Shown: positions 4,191-33,321 of the stretch, in pieces
Layout of the letters: every line of letters starts with the position of its first letter
Numbering within the stretch: position 1 is the first letter of the stretch
Notes under the pieces: generated by a model
Database searches by the model: none
What the model was told of the DNA's origin: nothing
What the model saw: only the letters and a program-made list of their open reading frames with translations
Position numbers and translations under genes: made by a program
NCBI GenBank assembly: GCA_020846875.1
Contig: JADLDB010000143.1
Span: 1-38,878, forward strand
Length of the DNA: 38,878 bases
DNA from: Myxococcales bacterium
Lineage (GTDB): Bacteria; Myxococcota; Myxococcia; Myxococcales; Myxococcaceae
Reading direction: 5' to 3'

Positions 4191-4323
4191 TGGCCTGCAG
4201 CACCTGCCACGACGCCCGCCTCGTCGCCTTCTCTTGCAAGGGCCGCGGCTTCTGCCCTTCCTGCACCACCCGGCGCGCCCTGGACACGGGCGCCCACCTC
4301 GAGTCCGTCTTGCCTCTCAGTCA
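4191..4323 (+). pseudogene. IS91-family transposase zinc-ribbon fragment
   Basis: The frame reads ACSTCHDARLVAFSCKGRGF then CPSCTTRRALDTGAHLESVLPL. Two CxxC pairs around an 'LVAFSCKxRGFCPSC' core and a following 'AHLxxxVLP' are the hallmark of the N-terminal zinc-binding region of IS91-type (HUH, Y2) transposases. The catalytic HUH and Tyr region is missing, and the frame stops at 4336 after running into unrelated sequence. It is a truncated relic joined on the left to an OrfA-type fragment and on the right to an RHS fragment. Confidence 0.7.
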
Positions 4324-4479
4324 GACACCCTGGTGAGGCAGGTCTGGGACAACGCGACCATCGGGTGTGCTGGGTACTCGGGCGGATGGAAGCAGGGTGG
4401 CCGGCTCGCGAAGAGGACGGATGCCACCGGCGACACCTACTACGCGTACAACGAGCTCGGGAAGTTGATGGCCGAGAAC
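4324..4479 (+). pseudogene. RHS/YD-repeat protein fragment
   Basis: Roughly 52 codons read DTLVRQVWDNATIGCAGYSG, then GRLAKRTDATGDTYYAYNEL and GKLMAEN. The 'GRLxxRTDATGxTxYAYxELGxL' pattern is the YD repeat of RHS proteins, which form shells around toxins in contact-dependent competition or make wall-associated glycan-binding repeats. Only about one and a half repeats remain, without start, signal or core. The open frame runs on to 4776 (see next entry). Confidence 0.65.
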
Positions 4480-4776
4480 GTCGTGCTCCCGGGCTCTTCC
4501 TCATGCGACCCCCAACACCAGCGGGAGTTCTGGCAGGCGATGGCCAACGGGTGCCTCGGTCGCGCGGACTGGGAGAGCGTTCTTAATGAGGACTTCTGGT
4601 CAGCTCCCCAGAAGTCGCCTTGTTGGACGTTTCTGGCGGTGGCTCGAGAGCAGCCCGAGTTGGTTCTTCGACTGTCCGGTCCGGAATTGGCTGCAGACCG
4701 TGAACTCGATGAATTCTGTGCCGGCGAATTATCTCAGGACGAGTCAGCGGCTCTCCTGTCAGGTCATGTCCCGTGA
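4480..4776 (+). other. Unrecognised frame downstream of the RHS fragment
   Basis: In frame with the RHS piece, about 98 codons follow and end at a TGA at 4776. From an internal ATG at 4540 the 78-residue product would read MANGCLGRADWESVLNEDFW and so on: an acidic, Trp-containing small protein with natural-looking composition. The G+C content falls to about 58% over 4561-4800 (my count), well below the neighbours. It could be the 3' end of a rearranged RHS tip, a small immunity-type protein, or another relic. I recognise no family. Confidence 0.35.
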
Positions 4777-7876: not shown

Positions 7877-8024
7877 CGTCTCGCGCCCGCACGGTGCGCT
7901 CTCCTCGCGCACGCCCCTACACCTCGAAGCTGGACTGGCTGGCGCGGGGCCGCGGCGCTATGAAGCGTCGAGCGCGAGGCGACCTGGCCGAAGGGTGCGT
8001 CTCCTCACTCCTGGAGCAGACAGC

Positions 8025-11000
8025 ATGAGAACCACCACCCCGAGACTCCTCGGCCTCGTCTTCCTCACCACCCTCGCGGCCTGCGGCGGCAGTCCCACTC
8101 CTCCGCCTGGCTGCGGTGACGGCACCACGGGTAGCGGGGAGGCCTGCGACGACGGCAACACCACCGCCGGTGACGGCTGCGGTTCCACCTGCGCGCTCGA
8201 GACGGGCTTCACCTGCAGCGGCACGCCCAGCGCCTGCGCCACCACCTGCGGCGACGGCGTCACGGCGGGGGCCGAGGCCTGCGACGACGGCAACACCACG
8301 GCCGGCGACGGCTGCAGCACCTCCTGCGCGGTGGAGGCCGGCTTCACCTGCACCGGCGCGCCCAGCGCCTGCGCGCCCACCTGCGGCGACGGCACCCTGG
8401 CCGGCGCCGAGGCCTGCGACGACGGCGACACCACGGCCGGAGACGGGTGCAGCGCCTCCTGCGCGGTGGAGAGCGGCTATGCCTGCACCGGCGAGCCCAG
8501 CACCTGCGCGCCCACCTGCGGCGACGGCGCGCTGGCCGGCGCCGAGGCCTGCGACGACAGCAACCCCACCTCCGGCGATGGGTGCAGCGCCTCCTGCGCG
8601 GTGGAGACCGGCTATACCTGCACGGGCGCGCCCAGCACCTGCACGCCGGCCTGTGGCGACGGCCTGCTGGCGGGGGCCGAGGGCTGCGACGACGCCAACA
8701 CCATGGCGGACGACGGCTGCGGCCCCTCCTGCACCTCCGAGGCCGGGTGGACCTGCACCGGCGCGCCCAGCGTGTGCATCGGGACTTGTGGCGACGGCCT
8801 GAAGGTAGGGACGGAGGGCTGCGACGACGACAACACCACCGCGGGTGACGGCTGCAGCGCCACCTGCGCCGTGGAGAGCGGCTTCACCTGCACCGGCACC
8901 CCCAGCGTCTGCGTCACGAGCTGCGGCGACGGCCTCATCGGTGGCGCGGAGGGCTGCGACGACGGCAACACCTCCCCAGGCGACGGGTGCAGCGCCACCT
9001 GCGCCGTAGAGAGCGGCTTCGCCTGCACCGGGACGCCCAGCGTCTGCGCCACCGCGTGTGGTGACGGCGTCCTCGCCGGGACCGAGGCGTGCGACGACGG
9101 CAATACCAGCGGTCTGGACGGGTGCAGCGCGCTGTGCGCGATCGAGACGGGCTGGAGCTGCACCGGCGCCCCCAGCACCTGCGCCACCACCTGCGGCGAC
9201 GGGCTGCGCGCGGGCGCCGAGTCCTGCGACGACGGCAACACCACCGGTGGCGACGGGTGCAGCGCCACCTGCGGCGGAGAGACGGGCTGGAGCTGCAGCG
9301 GCTCGCCCAGCGTGTGCAACACGATCTGCGGTGACGGCCTCCTCGTCGGCACCGAGGCCTGCGACGACAGCGACACCATGGGCAATGACGGCTGCAGCGC
9401 GACCTGCACCGTGGAGAATGGGTGGGCCTGCTCGGGTTCGCCCAGCACCTGCGTCCCGGTGTGCGGAGACACGGTCATCGTCGGGCCGGAGCAGTGCGAC
9501 GACGGCAACACCGTGCCTGACGACGGGTGCACCGCGAGCTGCCGCTACCCCACGGGTGAGTCGTGCAGCGAGCCGCTGGTGCTGTCCCGCGGCCAACCCC
9601 TGGGCCCGGGCACGCAGTGGATCATCCCCTCGGGCGGCGTGACGGTGGCGGACGGGGCGTTCGCCTGCGACACCAGCGGCTCCGGCCCGGACGTGGTCAT
9701 CAAGTACGTGAAGACGAGCGGCACGGTGGCCGGCGGAGGCTCGCTCCTCCACGTCCGCGCCACCCCCACCGTCGCCACCACCACCCCCTACTACCTCAAC
9801 GTGGAGGTGACGTCGGGCTCCTGCAGCCCTGCGGGCCGGGTGGAGAAGTGCGCCTGGTACAAGCACGACTGGGACGTCTGGCTCGACGTGCCGGCGGGCA
9901 CCTATTACGTGTGGGTCGCGAAGAACTCGGCGGCCACGCCCACGGTGCTCTTCCCCGAGACGGACGTGTTCATCGAGGAAGCGGCCGCCACCGCCGCGCT
10001 GGCCCAGGGCGAAGGCTGCTTCGCGCCCTTCACCACCTCGAGCGCCAACTACACGCCGCCCGCGATGGCCGGCGCGCCCCACACCTGGGCCCTTCCCGCC
10101 AACATCAACTCCTACGACCGGGGCATCTCCACGGGCGGGCCCGGCAGCATCTCCTGCGACGGCACCTCGCCAGCGCCCATCCACGGGGTGGACGCGGTCA
10201 TCGCGGTAGCCAAGGCGTCCGCGGCGACGGTGCTGCTGGTGCAGGCGCAGAACGTGGATCCCGTGCTGACGCAGAGTGACTTGAACGTCGAGCTCACCGC
10301 CACCTGCGACGCGCTGGCGCCGATGGCCTGGTCCCGCAACTGCCGGTGGAACCAGGACACGGTGGAGTTCACCGCGCCGGCGCCCGCCGGCACCTCGTAC
10401 GTGTGGGTCAGCACCGAGGCCACCAGCGAGGAGTTCAACGGCGCCACCGTGCAGGTGACCGAGCTGGCCGCGGGGGTGGGGGAGACGTGGGGCACCGCCG
10501 AGCTGCTCACCGGCTCGAGCTCCATCGTCCCCACCTCCACGCTGCGCTATGACGTGCCCTCCTGCCTGCCTGCCACCGGCAACGTGCACTGGTACCGCTT
10601 CGTGTCCACCCAGGACGTGGTGCGGGTGTCGGCCGTGGGCGCGGGCCCGGTGGGCGTCCTCGACGAGCACGGCCAGGAGATCTCCTGCGCGGCAGACGCC
10701 CAGGCCGTCCCGCAGGCAGCCTTCGTGCCGGCGGGCACCCCCGTGTACCTGGCGGTGCCGGTGGGCGGCGCGGTGACGGGACTCACCCTGCAGACGTTCG
10801 CCTACAGCGGCCTCCAGGGCAGCCCGGTGGATCTGCGCGTCACCTTCCCCACGTCCGCCACCAGCGAGTACGGCATGGCGGTGTCCGCCTCGACGCTCTA
10901 CATGGGCGACACCACCTCGGTGTTCGAGATCCCCAAGGCCGGCGGGGCGACCGCCGTCGAGCGCGGCACGGCCGAAGGCATCACCGCCACCCACCTCGGG

Positions 11001-11675
11001 TACGATCTCGTCTCGGTGGGCGGAAGGTTGTTCAGCGTGGACTCCACCACCACCACCACCGCCAGCCGGCTGTTCCGCATCTACGACGGCAGCGCCTGGG
11101 GGCCGACGGCGTGGGACGTGACGCCGGCCTACCCGGCGACCAGCGGCAGCTACGCCGTGGCCACCGACGGCAACCTGGTCTTCCTCGCCACGCGCAACAC
11201 CTCGACGACGACGGGGAACGTCACCTTCTACTCCTTCAGCCAGGCGATGCCCGGCGTGCCCGCGCTGCTGGGGACCAACACGTCGGTGCGCTACGCGGTG
11301 GGCCTGGCGGCGGACGCCAACTACTTCTACGTGGCGGGCGTCTCGATGGCGACCGCTCAAGAAGGCATCTTCCGGATCGCGCGCAGCAACCTCGCGGCGC
11401 CGGCGGTACAGTTGGCCGCGCTCAACACCAGCACCCTGCACAGCTCGGTGGTGGTGGACAGCCTGACGGCGCCCAACTACCTCTACGCGCGCGACGCGAC
11501 GGGGGACATTCACGTGGTCCAGGGCCCCGCCGGCGCGGCGCCGGCGCACCTGGGCGCGCGGTGGACGCTGGGCTCGGCGAGCGACTACTCGATGACCTTC
11601 GACCACGCGCAGCCGGCGCTGTACTTCTTCGAGACCGAGACGGACGCCGCCGGGGTCATTCGCCGCGTCCAGTAG
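8025..11675 (+). CDS. Large secreted lipoprotein with 11 Cys-rich (DUF4215-type) repeats
   Basis: A 1216-residue lipoprotein: signal MRTTTPRLLGLVFLTTLAAC with the lipid Cys at 20. Residues 30-514 are ten 45-residue repeats plus a shortened eleventh, with consensus CGDGxxxGxEACDDGNTT then xGDGCSATC and a CxGxPSxC end: six Cys per repeat, hence a disulfide-stapled rod. After this come beta-sandwich regions with HWYRFVSTQDVVRVSAVG (PPC-like) and, from about residue 940, sequence resembling a six-blade propeller (VSASTLYMGDTTSVFEIPK). The start is supported by GGAG nine bases upstream of ATG 8025. Such repeats occur on myxobacterial surface proteins; a role in adhesion or display is inferred. No enzyme motif seen. 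Confidence 0.9.
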   Translation: MRTTTPRLLGLVFLTTLAACGGSPTPPPGCGDGTTGSGEACDDGNTTAGDGCGSTCALETGFTCSGTPSACATTCGDGVTAGAEACDDGNTTAGDGCSTSCAVEAGFTCTGAPSACAPTCGDGTLAGAEACDDGDTTAGDGCSASCAVESGYACTGEPSTCAPTCGDGALAGAEACDDSNPTSGDGCSASCAVETGYTCTGAPSTCTPACGDGLLAGAEGCDDANTMADDGCGPSCTSEAGWTCTGAPSVCIGTCGDGLKVGTEGCDDDNTTAGDGCSATCAVESGFTCTGTPSVCVTSCGDGLIGGAEGCDDGNTSPGDGCSATCAVESGFACTGTPSVCATACGDGVLAGTEACDDGNTSGLDGCSALCAIETGWSCTGAPSTCATTCGDGLRAGAESCDDGNTTGGDGCSATCGGETGWSCSGSPSVCNTICGDGLLVGTEACDDSDTMGNDGCSATCTVENGWACSGSPSTCVPVCGDTVIVGPEQCDDGNTVPDDGCTASCRYPTGESCSEPLVLSRGQPLGPGTQWIIPSGGVTVADGAFACDTSGSGPDVVIKYVKTSGTVAGGGSLLHVRATPTVATTTPYYLNVEVTSGSCSPAGRVEKCAWYKHDWDVWLDVPAGTYYVWVAKNSAATPTVLFPETDVFIEEAAATAALAQGEGCFAPFTTSSANYTPPAMAGAPHTWALPANINSYDRGISTGGPGSISCDGTSPAPIHGVDAVIAVAKASAATVLLVQAQNVDPVLTQSDLNVELTATCDALAPMAWSRNCRWNQDTVEFTAPAPAGTSYVWVSTEATSEEFNGATVQVTELAAGVGETWGTAELLTGSSSIVPTSTLRYDVPSCLPATGNVHWYRFVSTQDVVRVSAVGAGPVGVLDEHGQEISCAADAQAVPQAAFVPAGTPVYLAVPVGGAVTGLTLQTFAYSGLQGSPVDLRVTFPTSATSEYGMAVSASTLYMGDTTSVFEIPKAGGATAVERGTAEGITATHLGYDLVSVGGRLFSVDSTTTTTASRLFRIYDGSAWGPTAWDVTPAYPATSGSYAVATDGNLVFLATRNTSTTTGNVTFYSFSQAMPGVPALLGTNTSVRYAVGLAADANYFYVAGVSMATAQEGIFRIARSNLAAPAVQLAALNTSTLHSSVVVDSLTAPNYLYARDATGDIHVVQGPAGAAPAHLGARWTLGSASDYSMTFDHAQPALYFFETETDAAGVIRRVQ
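8112..9566 (+). repeat. Tandem 135-bp coding repeats (10 full plus 1 partial)
   Basis: TGC codons beginning each CGDG unit occur every 135 bp from 8112 to 9462 with no length change, giving ten full units and a partial eleventh that ends near 9566. Units are similar at DNA level as well as protein level (for example the shared core around GACGACGGCAACACCACC), so slippage or recombination could change copy number. The units fill the Cys-rich half of the lipoprotein gene. Confidence 0.92.
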
Positions 11676-28882: not shown

Positions 28883-30394
28883 GTGCGCGCCGCCGCCCTG
28901 CTGGTCGCCGTCCTCCTCGCCGGTCCGGCCGTGGCCGACGAGGAGTCTTTCCGCTGGGGGGCCGACGCGCAGGGCGGCGCGCCGTACGTCTTTCAGGACC
29001 CGATGGACCCCAACCACCTCATCGGCTTCGAGGTGGACCTGGCCGACCTCCTGGCGAAGAAGCTGGGCCAGAAGGCGCACCCGGTGCACGGGCCGTGGGA
29101 CAAGCTGCTGGAGCTGCTCGCGCGCGGCGACTTCGACGTGGCCTTGAACGGCATCGAGGTGGCCGTGGAGAAGAAGCGGGTGGTGGCCCTGTCCCGGCCG
29201 TACTTCGCCGCCGCCCTCGTCCTCACCGTGCGCAAGGCAGACGCCGCCGCCCCGCGCGCGCTGGAGGCGCTCGAGGGCCGGAAGGTGGGCACGCTGCCGG
29301 GCTCGATGGCCGAGCGGATCGCCACCCGCGCCGGCGCCGAGGTCCACACCTACGAGGGCGGGCAGGACGAGATCTACGACGACTTGAAGCTGGGCCGCAC
29401 CGACGCGGTGCTGCTGGACGAGCCGGTGGCCCGCTACTACGGCGACATCGAGGACGCGCTGGAGACGGTCCGCGGCGACTTCGGCGTGGTGCAGTACGCG
29501 GTGGCGGTGCGCCTGGACGACGCCGCGCGCCTGGCGGAGGTGAACGCCGCGCTGGACGCGCTCGAGAAGGAAGGGGCGCTGCGGCCGCTGTACGAGAAGT
29601 GGGGCCTGTGGAGCCCCGAGACGGCGGCGCTGCTGGGCGAGAAGGACCCCGCGCCCCGGGCCCCGGCCATCGAGTACGAGCGCTGGCGCGCCGCGGTGGG
29701 CAAGCTGCCGCCCTTCACCGAGCGCCTCACCCGCCGCTACCCGGGCCTCTTGCCGTTGTTCCTCAAGGGCGCGGGCCTGACGCTGCTCGTCTCGCTCTGC
29801 GCGATGGCCCTGGCGGTGGTGCTGGGCGTCGGCCTGGCCATGGGCCGGCGCTACGGGCCCAGGGCGCTCAGCTTCCTCTGCGTGGCGTACATCGAGTTCT
29901 TCCGGGGTACGCCCCTGCTCATCCAGCTGACGATGATCTACTTCGGCCTGCCCGAGCTGGGGCTCAAGCTCGACCCCTTCCTCGCGGGGGTGGTGGCGCT
30001 GGGACTCAACTACGCCGCGGCGGAGGCGGAGAACTACCGCGCGGGCCTCGAGTCCGTGCCCCGCGGCCAGGTGGAGGCCGCCCAGGTGCTGGGCCTGTCC
30101 ACCCTGCAGACGCTGCGGCACGTGGTGGGCCCGCAGGCGGTGCGGATCTCCATTCCCCCGATGACCAACGACTTCATCGCGCTGCTCAAGGACAGCTCGC
30201 TCGTCTCCGTCGTCACCCTGACCGAGCTGACCAAGACGTACACCAACCTCGCCAACTCCACGCGCGATCACCTGGGCCTGGGGCTCCTGGTGGCCAGCTG
30301 TTACCTCCTGCTGGGGCTGCCCTTCGCGCGCCTGGCCAGGGCGGCCGAGCGCTACTTCGGCAAGCACCTCACCCGGCCCGAGGCCCAGGCGTGA
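28883..30394 (+). CDS. Amino-acid ABC importer: fused binding protein and permease
   Basis: A 503-residue fusion. After a signal peptide (MRAAALLVAVLLAGPAVA) residues 24-250 are a family 3 solute-binding domain (GFEVDLADLLAKKLG, GDFDVALNGIEVAVEKKRVV, LKLGRTDAVLLDEPVARYYG). Residues about 285-495 are a HisM/GlnP-type permease with EFFRGTPLLIQLTMIYFGLP and the EAA loop (AENYRAGLESVPRGQVEAAQ then VLGL), which docks the ATPase. The layout matches GlnPQ-type importers where the binding domain is tethered to the permease; probably a homodimer. The ligand is likely a polar amino acid, unproven. GTG start at 28883; stop overlaps the ATPase GTG. Confidence 0.92.
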   Translation: MRAAALLVAVLLAGPAVADEESFRWGADAQGGAPYVFQDPMDPNHLIGFEVDLADLLAKKLGQKAHPVHGPWDKLLELLARGDFDVALNGIEVAVEKKRVVALSRPYFAAALVLTVRKADAAAPRALEALEGRKVGTLPGSMAERIATRAGAEVHTYEGGQDEIYDDLKLGRTDAVLLDEPVARYYGDIEDALETVRGDFGVVQYAVAVRLDDAARLAEVNAALDALEKEGALRPLYEKWGLWSPETAALLGEKDPAPRAPAIEYERWRAAVGKLPPFTERLTRRYPGLLPLFLKGAGLTLLVSLCAMALAVVLGVGLAMGRRYGPRALSFLCVAYIEFFRGTPLLIQLTMIYFGLPELGLKLDPFLAGVVALGLNYAAAEAENYRAGLESVPRGQVEAAQVLGLSTLQTLRHVVGPQAVRISIPPMTNDFIALLKDSSLVSVVTLTELTKTYTNLANSTRDHLGLGLLVASCYLLLGLPFARLARAAERYFGKHLTRPEAQA

Positions 30395-31158
30395 CGCTCA
30401 AAGTCACCGGCCTGGTGCGGCACCACGCGGGCAACCCGCAGCCCACCCTGCGCGGGCTGTCCTTCGAGCTCCCCGCGGGCACGCTGACGGCGCTCCTGGG
30501 GCGCAGCGGCGCCGGCAAGTCCACCATGCTCCGCTGCGTGATGGGGCTGGAGAGCTTCGAGGAAGGCGCCATCGACGTCGACGGGGTGGTGGTGAAGGGC
30601 ACGCGGCAGTCCACGCCCGCCGAGCGGAAGGCGGCCATCGCCGCCTCGCGCGAGCGGCTGGGCCTCGTCTTCCAGACCTGGGAGCTCTTCCCCCACCTCA
30701 CCGCCCTCGACAACTGCACCCTGGCGCCGGTGAAGGTGAAGCAGGCGCCGAGGGAAAAGGCCCGCGCGCGCGCTCGGGAGCTGCTGGTGGGGCTGGGCCT
30801 TGAGGCGCGCCTCGACGCCTACCCGGAGCAACTGTCCGGCGGGCAGCGGCAGCGGGTGGCGATCGCCCGGGCCCTGGCGATGGAGCCGCGGGTGCTGCTC
30901 TACGACGAGCCCACCAGCGCGCTCGACCCCTCGATGAAGCACGAGGTGCTGCAGACCTTGAAGCGCGTGGACGCCAGCGGGGTGACGCAGGTGGTGGTGA
31001 CGCACGACCTGCAGTTGGCTCTTGGCGTGGAACACGTCTGCGTGATCGATCACGGCACCGTCATCGAGAGCGGCCCGCCGGAGCAGGTCCTGAAGAGCCC
31101 CGTCCACGAAAGCACCCGCGCGCTGCTCGCCACCTGGCTGGCCGCCGACCGCGGTTGA
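30391..31158 (+). CDS. Amino-acid ABC importer ATP-binding protein
   Basis: A 255-residue ATPase of the GlnQ/HisP branch: Walker A GRSGAGKST (37-45), LGLVFQTWELFPHLTALDN Q-loop, signature LSGGQRQR (148-155), Walker B LLYDEP (Asp172-Glu173), switch His in VTHDLQLA. It energises the fused binding-protein/permease encoded just upstream, with which it shares a GTGA overlap (start GTG 30391). The Q-loop segment and 'ALAMEPRVLLYDEPTSALDP' are close to the polar amino-acid uptake consensus. Followed by a hairpin terminator. Confidence 0.93.
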   Translation: MTLKVTGLVRHHAGNPQPTLRGLSFELPAGTLTALLGRSGAGKSTMLRCVMGLESFEEGAIDVDGVVVKGTRQSTPAERKAAIAASRERLGLVFQTWELFPHLTALDNCTLAPVKVKQAPREKARARARELLVGLGLEARLDAYPEQLSGGQRQRVAIARALAMEPRVLLYDEPTSALDPSMKHEVLQTLKRVDASGVTQVVVTHDLQLALGVEHVCVIDHGTVIESGPPEQVLKSPVHESTRALLATWLAADRG

Positions 31159-31168
31159 TTGTGCTCAG

Positions 31169-31201
31169 GCGGCGCTTTTTCCGTTCCGCTGGGAGCGCCG
31201 C
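31169..31201 (+). terminator. Hairpin terminator after the importer operon
   Basis: GCGGCGCT (31169-31176) pairs perfectly with AGCGCCGC (31194-31201) across a 17-base loop that itself starts with TTTT; GAATTTTTC follows 9-17 bases later. It sits 10 bp after the ATPase stop and before the lipoprotein run, and probably separates the two transcripts. Confidence 0.5.
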
Positions 31202-31261
31202 TCTGATTGAATTTTTCGCAAGTCGGCGCAATGGCCGGCGATTTCGGGAGGGAGTTCACAC

Positions 31262-31504
31262 ATGAATTGGAAGAGAGGTTTCATCGGCCTCCTCGCCGCT
31301 GGTGCGTTCGCATCGAGCTGTGCGGGGCCGAGGATCGTGAGCAGCATGGGCACGACCCGCGACGGGAAGTTCCGGCTGCTGTACGGGCGGAACCTGGGCA
31401 TGGGCGCCGGCACCGAGCAGGGCATCATCGACTGCCAGGCGCAGGCGGACGGCAGCATCACCAATTGCCAGCCGGTCAAGCTGGTGTTCGAGGAGGGCAA
31501 GTGA
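31262..31504 (+). CDS. Tiny lipoprotein A of a four-gene run
   Basis: An 80-residue lipoprotein: MNWKRGFIGLLAAGAFASSC, lipid Cys at 20. The mature part is about 60 residues with beta-type FRLLYGRNLGMGAG and a Cys pair in DCQAQADGSITNCQ (C-x10-C), likely one disulfide. Preceded by GGGAGG about ten bases before the ATG and by a relatively AT-rich leader (about 53% G+C over 31201-31260). Its stop overlaps the start of lipoprotein B. Four tandem genes share size, export signal and the Cys-pair hairpin, so it is probably a paralogue of the others. No family recognised. Confidence 0.75.
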   Translation: MNWKRGFIGLLAAGAFASSCAGPRIVSSMGTTRDGKFRLLYGRNLGMGAGTEQGIIDCQAQADGSITNCQPVKLVFEEGK

Positions 31505-31815
31505 GGCGCGCGCTCAAGGAGGCGTTGATGGTGGCGGCGCTCGCGGCCTTCGCGGCGTCGGCGTCGGGCTGTCTGTCGAGCCGGCTCATCCGCTCGGTGG
31601 CGCAGTCGGGGGACAAGAACGTGACGCTGGTGGAGACGTACGACCGGTACACGTACATCCCCGGGCTGTGGTTCGCCGGCAAGCACCAGTTCTGGAAGTG
31701 CACCGAGGTGCCGGGGACCATGACCTGCCAGAAGGTGTGCGAGGCCAAGGACTCGGATCTCGCCTGCCCGGGCATCGGCGCCTTCGCCGTGGCCGGCGAC
31801 AACGCGGTCAAGTGA
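31501..31815 (+). CDS. Tiny lipoprotein B of a four-gene run
   Basis: A 104-residue lipoprotein starting at GTG 31501 in a GTGA overlap with lipoprotein A. The signal VRRALKEALMVAALAAFAAS then ASGC places the lipid Cys at 24. The mature domain has VTLVETYDRYTYIPGLWF, then KCTEVPGTMTC (C-x8-C), the hairpin also seen in its neighbours, and two extra Cys (KVCEAKDSDLAC) that could make a second disulfide. Unknown family. It seems the most elaborated of the four. Confidence 0.72.
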   Translation: MRRALKEALMVAALAAFAASASGCLSSRLIRSVAQSGDKNVTLVETYDRYTYIPGLWFAGKHQFWKCTEVPGTMTCQKVCEAKDSDLACPGIGAFAVAGDNAVK

Positions 31816-31828
31816 GGAGACAACGCCC

Positions 31829-32089
31829 ATGAACTGGAAACTCGTCATCCTCGCCGCGCTCACCGCGCTCGCGCTGTCCGCCTGCGGCCGCCCGCAGTAC
31901 CTGGTGGAGAACCAGATGGTGTCCGGCCGGAACGTCAAGGGCATTCTCGCCACCGGCGCGACCGGCGGAGAGAAGGGGCAGCTGTACGATCTGTCCGTGC
32001 GCATCTGTGACGTCGACGCCAGCGGCGCCGAGTCCAACTGTCAAACCTCACTCGTGCTGACCAACGTTCAGCCCGCGTCCATCTACTAA
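31829..32089 (+). CDS. Tiny lipoprotein C of a four-gene run
   Basis: An 86-residue lipoprotein: MNWKLVILAALTALALSAC with lipid Cys at 19. It opens with the same MNWK as lipoprotein A, 13 bp after the stop of B. GAGGAG lies about ten bases before the ATG. The mature part has GRNVKGILATGATGGEKGQL and VRICDVDASGAESNCQ, a C-x10-C hairpin nearly matching that of A (both end in N-C-Q). No known domain. Confidence 0.75.
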   Translation: MNWKLVILAALTALALSACGRPQYLVENQMVSGRNVKGILATGATGGEKGQLYDLSVRICDVDASGAESNCQTSLVLTNVQPASIY

Positions 32090-32106
32090 GGAAGGGAGAG
32101 ACCACC

Positions 32107-32379
32107 GTGAAGAGACTCTTGCTCGCCGCGGGGGCGCTGCTCGCCCTGTCCGGCTGCGTCAACGCCAAGTTCGTCACCGCCCGCACCTGGGTGGGGGGCG
32201 ACACGCTGTACGTCGCGTACACCGACTGGAACAAGGGCGTGTTCTCCAGCACGTACGACGCGAAGGTGCTGCGCTGCAACCGGCAGCCCAACAACGCGCT
32301 CACCTGCACCGACGAGGCGCAGTTGAACGCGATGCTCAACGAAGGCAACACCGACGCCTCGGCGCCGGCGGCGAAGTAG
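32107..32379 (+). CDS. Tiny lipoprotein D of a four-gene run
   Basis: A 90-residue lipoprotein starting at GTG 32107 after AGGGAG, 17 bp behind lipoprotein C. Signal VKRLLLAAGALLALSGC, lipid Cys 17. The mature part contains WVGGDTLYVAYTDWNKGVF and KVLRCNRQPNNALTC (C-x9-C), then an acidic helix ending in Ala/Pro. It shares size, aromatic-rich strand and Cys hairpin with the other three. No enzyme motif; probably a structural or binding lipoprotein of the envelope. Confidence 0.75.
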   Translation: MKRLLLAAGALLALSGCVNAKFVTARTWVGGDTLYVAYTDWNKGVFSSTYDAKVLRCNRQPNNALTCTDEAQLNAMLNEGNTDASAPAAK

Positions 32380-32508: not shown

Positions 32509-33321
32509 GTGGCGCCGCTCTTCTGGAAGTACCCCCGTCCCCTCGTCGAAGGCCGCCTGGTGCGCCGCTACGAGCGCTTCATCGCCGAGGTGCGCGTCGG
32601 CCGGCAGGTGGTGCGCGCCCACTGCGTCAACCCGGGGCGTATGGAAGGCCTGGTGGTGCCCGGGGCGCGGGTGTGGCTGAGCGAGGCGCGCCACGAGCGG
32701 GCGCTCAAGTACACGTGGGAGCTCATCGAGCTGGAGGGTGTCCTCATCGGCGCGAACACGTCGCTGCCCAACGCGCTGGTGCGGCGCGTGCTGGAGGAGC
32801 GCCTCCTGCCCGGCTTCGACGACGTGACGGCTCTGGCGGCGGAGCGCGCCTTCGGCCGGGGCCACCGGGTGGACTTCCTGCTCGACACGCCGCGCGGCGA
32901 GCACCTGGTGGAGGTGAAGAACTGCCACCTCGTCTACCCCGACGGCCTGGGCTACTTCCCCGACTCGCACAGCGAGCGCGCGGTGGCGCACGTGGACGCG
33001 CTGGCCCGGCAGGTGAAGCGGGGGAAGCGGGCCACGGTGCTCTTCACTCTCCAGCGGGAAGACGGCAACGGCCTGCGGCCCAGCGCCCGGCACGCGCCCG
33101 AGTTCGCCACCGCGGCGCGCCGCGCGGTGAAGGTGGGCGTGGCGATGCGCGCAGTGCGCCTGCTGCCGTCGCTGGAGGGCTTTCGCTTCGGCGGGGAGGT
33201 GCCTGTGGACGTGAGCGTCTACGACGCGCAGGCGGTGGCGCCCTGGGCCCGGGCGCTGGAGGCCACCTCCGGCTGGCTGCGCAAGGACGGCGCCATGGCG
33301 GGCAGGCGCTTGGGCGGCTGA
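32509..33321 (+). CDS. sfsA: SfsA family DNA/RNA nuclease-fold protein
   Basis: A 270-residue protein with the SfsA N-terminal OB-like region (RYERFIAEVRVGRQVVRAHC then VNPGRMEGLVVPGARVWLS) and the C-terminal PD-(D/E)xK-type fold: HRVDFLL supplies the Asp and HLVEVKNC the Glu-x-Lys. Named from E. coli sugar fermentation stimulation protein A; the family is reported to bind DNA, and nuclease activity is inferred from the fold. GTG start at 32509. About 25-30 residues longer at the C-terminus than typical members. A single gene, convergent with the GST gene through a shared hairpin terminator. Confidence 0.92.
   Translation: MAPLFWKYPRPLVEGRLVRRYERFIAEVRVGRQVVRAHCVNPGRMEGLVVPGARVWLSEARHERALKYTWELIELEGVLIGANTSLPNALVRRVLEERLLPGFDDVTALAAERAFGRGHRVDFLLDTPRGEHLVEVKNCHLVYPDGLGYFPDSHSERAVAHVDALARQVKRGKRATVLFTLQREDGNGLRPSARHAPEFATAARRAVKVGVAMRAVRLLPSLEGFRFGGEVPVDVSVYDAQAVAPWARALEATSGWLRKDGAMAGRRLGG

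Follow-up and report, generated by a model that had tools for sequence, protein, structure and literature searches.

Four tandem genes encoding very small lipoproteins (A, B, C and D) in a myxobacterial genome constitute, as judged by comparison of loci, a patchily kept, conserved operon rather than a product of local chance, and this operon is absent from the libraries searched. The four products may form an outer-membrane-anchored, disulfide-stapled heteromeric set on a larger envelope machine, with the Tad/Flp pilus as the best candidate, a reading to which we assign a probability of about 0.45.

Organization and distribution of the lipoprotein genes

The window (the whole 38,878-nucleotide stretch of DNA that was analysed) comes from a genome of 7.06 Mb in 200 contigs, which shares its family with Archangium violaceum and Myxococcaceae MAGs. 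Genes A, B, C and D (80, 104, 86 and 90 codons, respectively) lie in tandem on the plus strand at 31262-32379 (Table 1), and all four open reading frames were found where the earlier note had described tandem genes of 80-104 codons. The A-B, B-C and C-D gaps are -4, 13 and 17 bases, and Shine-Dalgarno-like GGAGG/GGAG runs precede most starts. This layout is operon-like and most likely reflects one ancient transcription unit; as far as sequence goes, it supports the proposal of joint expression at the envelope. The operon is flanked by an amino-acid ABC transporter (28883-31158; SBP_bac_3, BPD_transp_1 and ABC_tran) upstream and by sfsA (32509-33321) downstream. Two terminator-like stem-loops might isolate it from the upstream neighbour, a weak indication with two stem-loops found against 1.0 ± 1.1 expected in shuffles. 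A sigma-70 promoter scan, which says little in this bacterial group, found no promoters. A 290-aa reverse-strand open reading frame over 31165-32037 was taken as a shadow frame of G+C-rich DNA.

Table 1. Features of the four-gene lipoprotein locus in the window
Feature	Position	Strand	Remarks
Terminator-like stem-loops (two)	31161..31204	+	Between ABC transporter gene and A; weak
Lipoprotein A gene	31262..31504	+	80 aa, ATG start; mature from C20
A conserved features			CAGPR N-terminus and EQG-[IVL]-x-[DK]-C; orthologs in 5 other genomes and decayed copy
A hairpin C58-x10-C69	31433..31468	+	From translation; invariant in ortholog alignment
Lipoprotein B gene	31501..31815	+	104 aa, GTG start; 4-base overlap with A stop
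B conserved features			H-[QE]-F-[WY]-x-C motif and second cysteine pair; ortholog alignment
B hairpin C67-x8-C76	31699..31728	+	C67 invariant; C76 in all intact orthologs
Lipoprotein C gene	31829..32089	+	86 aa, ATG start; closest paralog of A
C hairpin C60-x10-C71	32006..32041	+	Both Cys invariant
Lipoprotein D gene	32107..32379	+	90 aa, GTG start; four strands and helix predicted
D hairpin C57-x9-C67	32275..32307	+	Both Cys invariant

Two other regions of the window were recorded. A 1226-aa lipoprotein-like protein with approximately ten DUF4215 cysteine-rich repeats is encoded at 7995-11675, with a long shadow open reading frame on the opposite strand. A short frame at 4234-4776 reads TDATGDTYYAYNELGKLMAE and by eye resembles what is left of an RHS/YD-repeat gene, with unrelated sequence next to it.

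Searches of 195 Myxococcota genomes, using each single protein and then profiles, located A-B-C-D with conserved order, strand and tight spacing in five other genomes. Two of the carriers, G093 (MAG JALHOS010000001) and G117 (Archangium violaceum Cb vi76), are Myxococcaceae, and three (G165, G166 and G167) come from two families outside the class. The gaps range from -4 to 18 bases across the six full loci and never exceed 18. Incomplete forms were also observed. G115 contains a decayed remnant (L039 4769-5240) in which A carries an in-frame TAG, B is truncated and C and D are missing from that site. G159 contains two adjacent tiny lipoprotein genes on the minus strand (L096 374-592 and 599-814), one of A/C-type and one of B-type. 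The genes thus occur together, and the one lone member, a D-like lipoprotein with a spaced cysteine pair in G182 (L105 1462-1770; no other members in the stretch read), falls short of the pattern that would have counted against a joint family, namely homologues of a single gene found alone everywhere. Two weak matches were dropped, one to a CxxCH cytochrome-like protein (G072) and one that overlaps other large genes (G190); a search with G159 gene 2 alone returned itself and two weak matches only.

Some form of the set is present in about 8 of the 195 genomes, a minimum figure, since scoring was limited to the best candidates in each genome and the proteins are very small. Draft or metagenome-derived assemblies account for several of the carriers. 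In genus g17, only one of the six listed genomes carries the set. A presence of about 8 in 195 shows that most Myxococcota can do without it. Ortholog identity within Myxococcaceae is 39-65%. The dN/dS values between the window and G093 are 0.14 (A), 0.59 (B), 0.47 (C) and 0.69 (D), and that of B between G166 and G167 is 0.08, where dS of the other genes is saturated. These values are rough, with dS near saturation in several comparisons; being below 1 in every computable comparison, they roughly agree with purifying selection.

Lipoprotein features, kinship and predicted structure

In each of the four proteins, a basic N-terminus is followed by a hydrophobic stretch and a cysteine of lipobox type; the lipoboxes of A and B are weak, with alanine at position -3. 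A signal peptide ending in a lipobox was read in all 24 intact proteins, for which lipidation is predicted. The LPAM_1 profile scores above its cut-off for D of G093 and just below it for D of the window (17.6 vs 20). In M. xanthus lipoproteins, lysine at +2 is associated with the inner membrane and alanine at +7 with the matrix (PMC3222651). Neither residue occurs at these positions in the mature N-termini read from the intact proteins (0 of 24), which makes outer-membrane anchoring the default reading, and we infer this location for A-D.

The mature domains of A-D had no match in Pfam, NCBIfam, PHROGs or PDB, in line with the earlier description of an unrecognised family. Sequence searches returned no convincing relative of solved structure (best E 0.075), and the PHROG matches were weak and mostly started in the signal peptide. 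A reading of C as LptM was rejected, since the match is limited to residues 3-21 (signal peptide and lipobox) and lies below the cut-offs (Pfam PF13627, 13.9 vs 27.3; NCBIfam NF047847, 20.1 vs 27.7, E 5e-4). No literature on tandem small lipoproteins in Myxococcota or in association with Tad was found with the terms tried.

Kinship among the four proteins was assessed by profile comparison against 100 column-shuffled controls, using mature domains alone because signal peptides inflate lipoprotein similarity. The A and C profiles match at E 8e-6 with a score of 30.6 (9.6 ± 2.0 shuffled; 0/100), which demonstrates common descent at the level of sequence profiles. The combined A+C profile scores 16.3 against D (8.4 ± 1.8 shuffled; 0/100). 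It also ranked a D protein first (E 7e-4) among 58 lipoprotein-like frames, a small background made up largely of shadow frames, and placed three D proteins and one G159 protein as the top four. The D profile, signal peptide included, finds C of G093 at E 3e-4. Common descent of D with A and C is supported by these comparisons. The A+C profile scores only 8.4 against B, and 61 of 100 cysteine-keeping shuffles score as high; a comparison of A, C, D and G159 gene 1 with B and G159 gene 2 gives 11.2, a score reached by 6 of 100 shuffles. Kinship of B with A, C and D is therefore not detectable by sequence. G159 gene 1 is A/C-like (17.1 vs 8.8 ± 1.7 shuffled; 0/100) and gene 2 is B-like (25.9 vs 9.7 ± 2.8 shuffled; 0/100), and the pairing of the two types even in this reduced form speaks for their cooperation.

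These results modify the idea of local duplication and divergence of one family. Duplication and divergence hold for A and C and probably for D, and are undetectable for B. The word 'local' was wrong, in that the loci compared indicate four genes already distinct and so ordered in the ancestor of all six loci, or in the ancestor of the operon if it has moved between lineages. The MNWK start shared by A and C, which had been read as a sign of kinship, is replaced in orthologs by MKRL, MTKK and others and so provides no evidence of it. Of the NCQ ending common to the A and C hairpins, the 'NC' is conserved in the majority of A and C orthologs.

The C-x(8-10)-C hairpins are as previously quoted, with 10, 8, 10 and 9 residues between the cysteines of A, B, C and D, respectively. 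All intact orthologs in the phylum have the pair (24 of 24 proteins), and the hairpin resemblance is thus not due to chance. The mature part of B contains two further cysteines, giving four besides the lipobox cysteine, a feature absent from the earlier note. A structure prediction had been proposed as a check for a shared fold, and AlphaFold2 models were built for B and D alone. The D model (pLDDT 66) consists of four strands (residues 3-12, 17-26, 31-43 and 49-51) and a helix (54-63), and the B model (pLDDT 65) consists of four strands (2-12, 18-28, 35-47 and 50-57). In both models, the first hairpin cysteine (mature residue 41 in D and 44 in B) falls in the latter half of strand 3, and the other one (mature residue 51 in D and 53 in B) falls in strand 4. 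The predicted strand order and cysteine placement are the same, and the models would agree, with modest confidence, with a shared four-strand β-meander but cannot prove it, as they are weak (pLDDT 65-66, from three sequences) and the β-meander is a common arrangement. Foldseek and VIA-align searches with the two models gave uniformly low and mixed rows (best Z 6.0 for B and 4.2 for D) and named no known fold.

Gene neighbourhoods and candidate functions

The flanks of the operon differ from genome to genome within Myxococcaceae. In G117, a prfC-like gene, another lipoprotein gene and a LuxR-type regulator gene were identified by eye; a cysteine-rich lipoprotein gene without a Pfam match (L038 3574-3993) is located approximately 90 bases upstream of A on the same strand. 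In G093, a TSP3-repeat protein is encoded upstream of the operon, and a phage-type integrase gene, tRNA-Glu and tRNA-Gly (L037 1643-3305) are positioned directly downstream of D, as at an island boundary.

In two lineages distant from each other, the operon has Tad genes as neighbours. In G165, the genes downstream of D run convergently and encode a prepilin peptidase (PF01478) and an Flp pilin (PF04964). The genes upstream of A in G167, all on the strand of the operon, comprise TadE (PF07811), a gene for a TadE/G-like protein (sub-threshold, E 0.005), genes for two further proteins and a small pilin-like open reading frame, none of these last three with a Pfam match. The G165 Flp gene and the G167 TadE gene are the only members of their family found in their own genomes, and matches to the other type occur elsewhere (Flp-type in G167 and TadE in G165). 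No Tad genes were found near the operon in the window, the TadE matches of its genome being on a different contig, or on the contigs that carry the operon in G093, G117 and G166; with the decayed G115 copy counted, Tad neighbours are absent at five of seven loci. Each of the eight genomes that carry the set in some form has TadE, a co-occurrence that is uninformative because TadE was checked in these eight genomes only. The two independent Tad neighbourhoods, picked after seeing the data among many possible neighbours, are suggestive of a Tad accessory role, which is the leading guess and unproven.

In the proposed mechanism, A-D would be made from one message and exported by Sec. The lipobox cysteine of each product would be lipidated, and the proteins, which carry no known retention or release signal, would stay in the outer membrane. 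The mature parts, of 61-81 residues, are each envisaged as a small four-strand β-meander in which a disulfide staples strands 3 and 4, with a second cysteine pair in B. Four non-interchangeable versions in fixed order, apparently lost together, make a heteromeric complex the most likely arrangement; each subunit would have one role, and the complex would be attached to a larger envelope machine. The candidate machine, offered as a guess, would be the Tad/Flp pilus.

Alternatively, the products may have diversified into surface lipoproteins that act largely independently, as decoys, antigens or modules for prey/sibling recognition, their genes being adjacent only through tandem duplication. The paralogy of A, C and D, the moderate ortholog identity, the patchy distribution and the integrase and tRNA genes adjoining the G093 operon would suit such proteins. 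Number and order usually vary in freely diversifying gene arrays, however, whereas both are fixed here in six genomes across the phylum, and B shows no kinship with A, C and D by sequence; we regard this alternative as unlikely. The integrase and tRNA genes, together with the patchy presence, the differing Myxococcaceae flanks and the decay in G115, would also fit selfish or neutral mobile-element cargo without a stable host function. Cargo of this type is quite unlikely, as dN/dS is below 1 wherever computable and the cysteines are invariant over phylum-scale divergence. A phage or plasmid origin was also rejected in tblastn searches, in which one protein tried against each collection gave no match.

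The invariant cysteine pair of all four families and the second pair of B could instead serve a redox function, the set acting as a thiol buffer of the envelope or as a relay for disulfide exchange and not as a structural complex. This role is very unlikely because A, C and D lack a conserved CxxC pair and the predicted position across a β-hairpin better fits a structural staple. A narrower form of the main explanation takes the set as an outer-membrane accessory of the Tad/Flp pilus specifically, such as secretin pilotin-like or pilus-associated cofactors. The G165 and G167 neighbourhoods and the TadE of all eight genomes point in this direction, but the Myxococcaceae loci and G166 are unlinked to Tad genes and TadD, the known pilotin of Tad, is by description a different lipoprotein (PMC10499894); this narrower form is unlikely. 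The boldest version of the preferred reading is also unlikely. It would be an undescribed, obligately four-part outer-membrane lipoprotein complex, combining one duplicated disulfide-hairpin module with the look-alike B, that environmental and predatory Myxococcota use as an accessory dedicated to the Tad pilus or to some other envelope machine.

Significance and comparison with known systems

Tiny lipoproteins are usually skipped by annotation. An ordered four kept together across the phylum, while most relatives lack them, points strongly, on genetic grounds, to a multi-subunit envelope structure, and the operon is easy to test as a unit (1.1 kb, a single deletion). If the Tad link is true, the set would add a new class to the accessory proteins of Tad, in bacteria whose predation makes use of Tad-like machines.

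The Staphylococcus lpl clusters also consist of paralogous lipoprotein genes in tandem, and their copy number varies among strains. The genes described here differ from lpl in their hosts and in forming a fixed ordered four, and their mature domains reach no Pfam family cut-off. LptM (PF13627/NF047847) is a small outer-membrane lipoprotein, but C resembles it only in the signal peptide and lipobox, and its mature domain is unmatched. The Kil (Tad-like) system of M. xanthus includes two predicted outer-membrane lipoproteins of unknown function (PMC8460266). By description only, the set resembles TadD and the Kil lipoproteins in consisting of predicted outer-membrane lipoproteins linked to Tad genes (here in G165 and G167) in a myxobacterial setting; unlike them, the set in the window genome has no Tad linkage.
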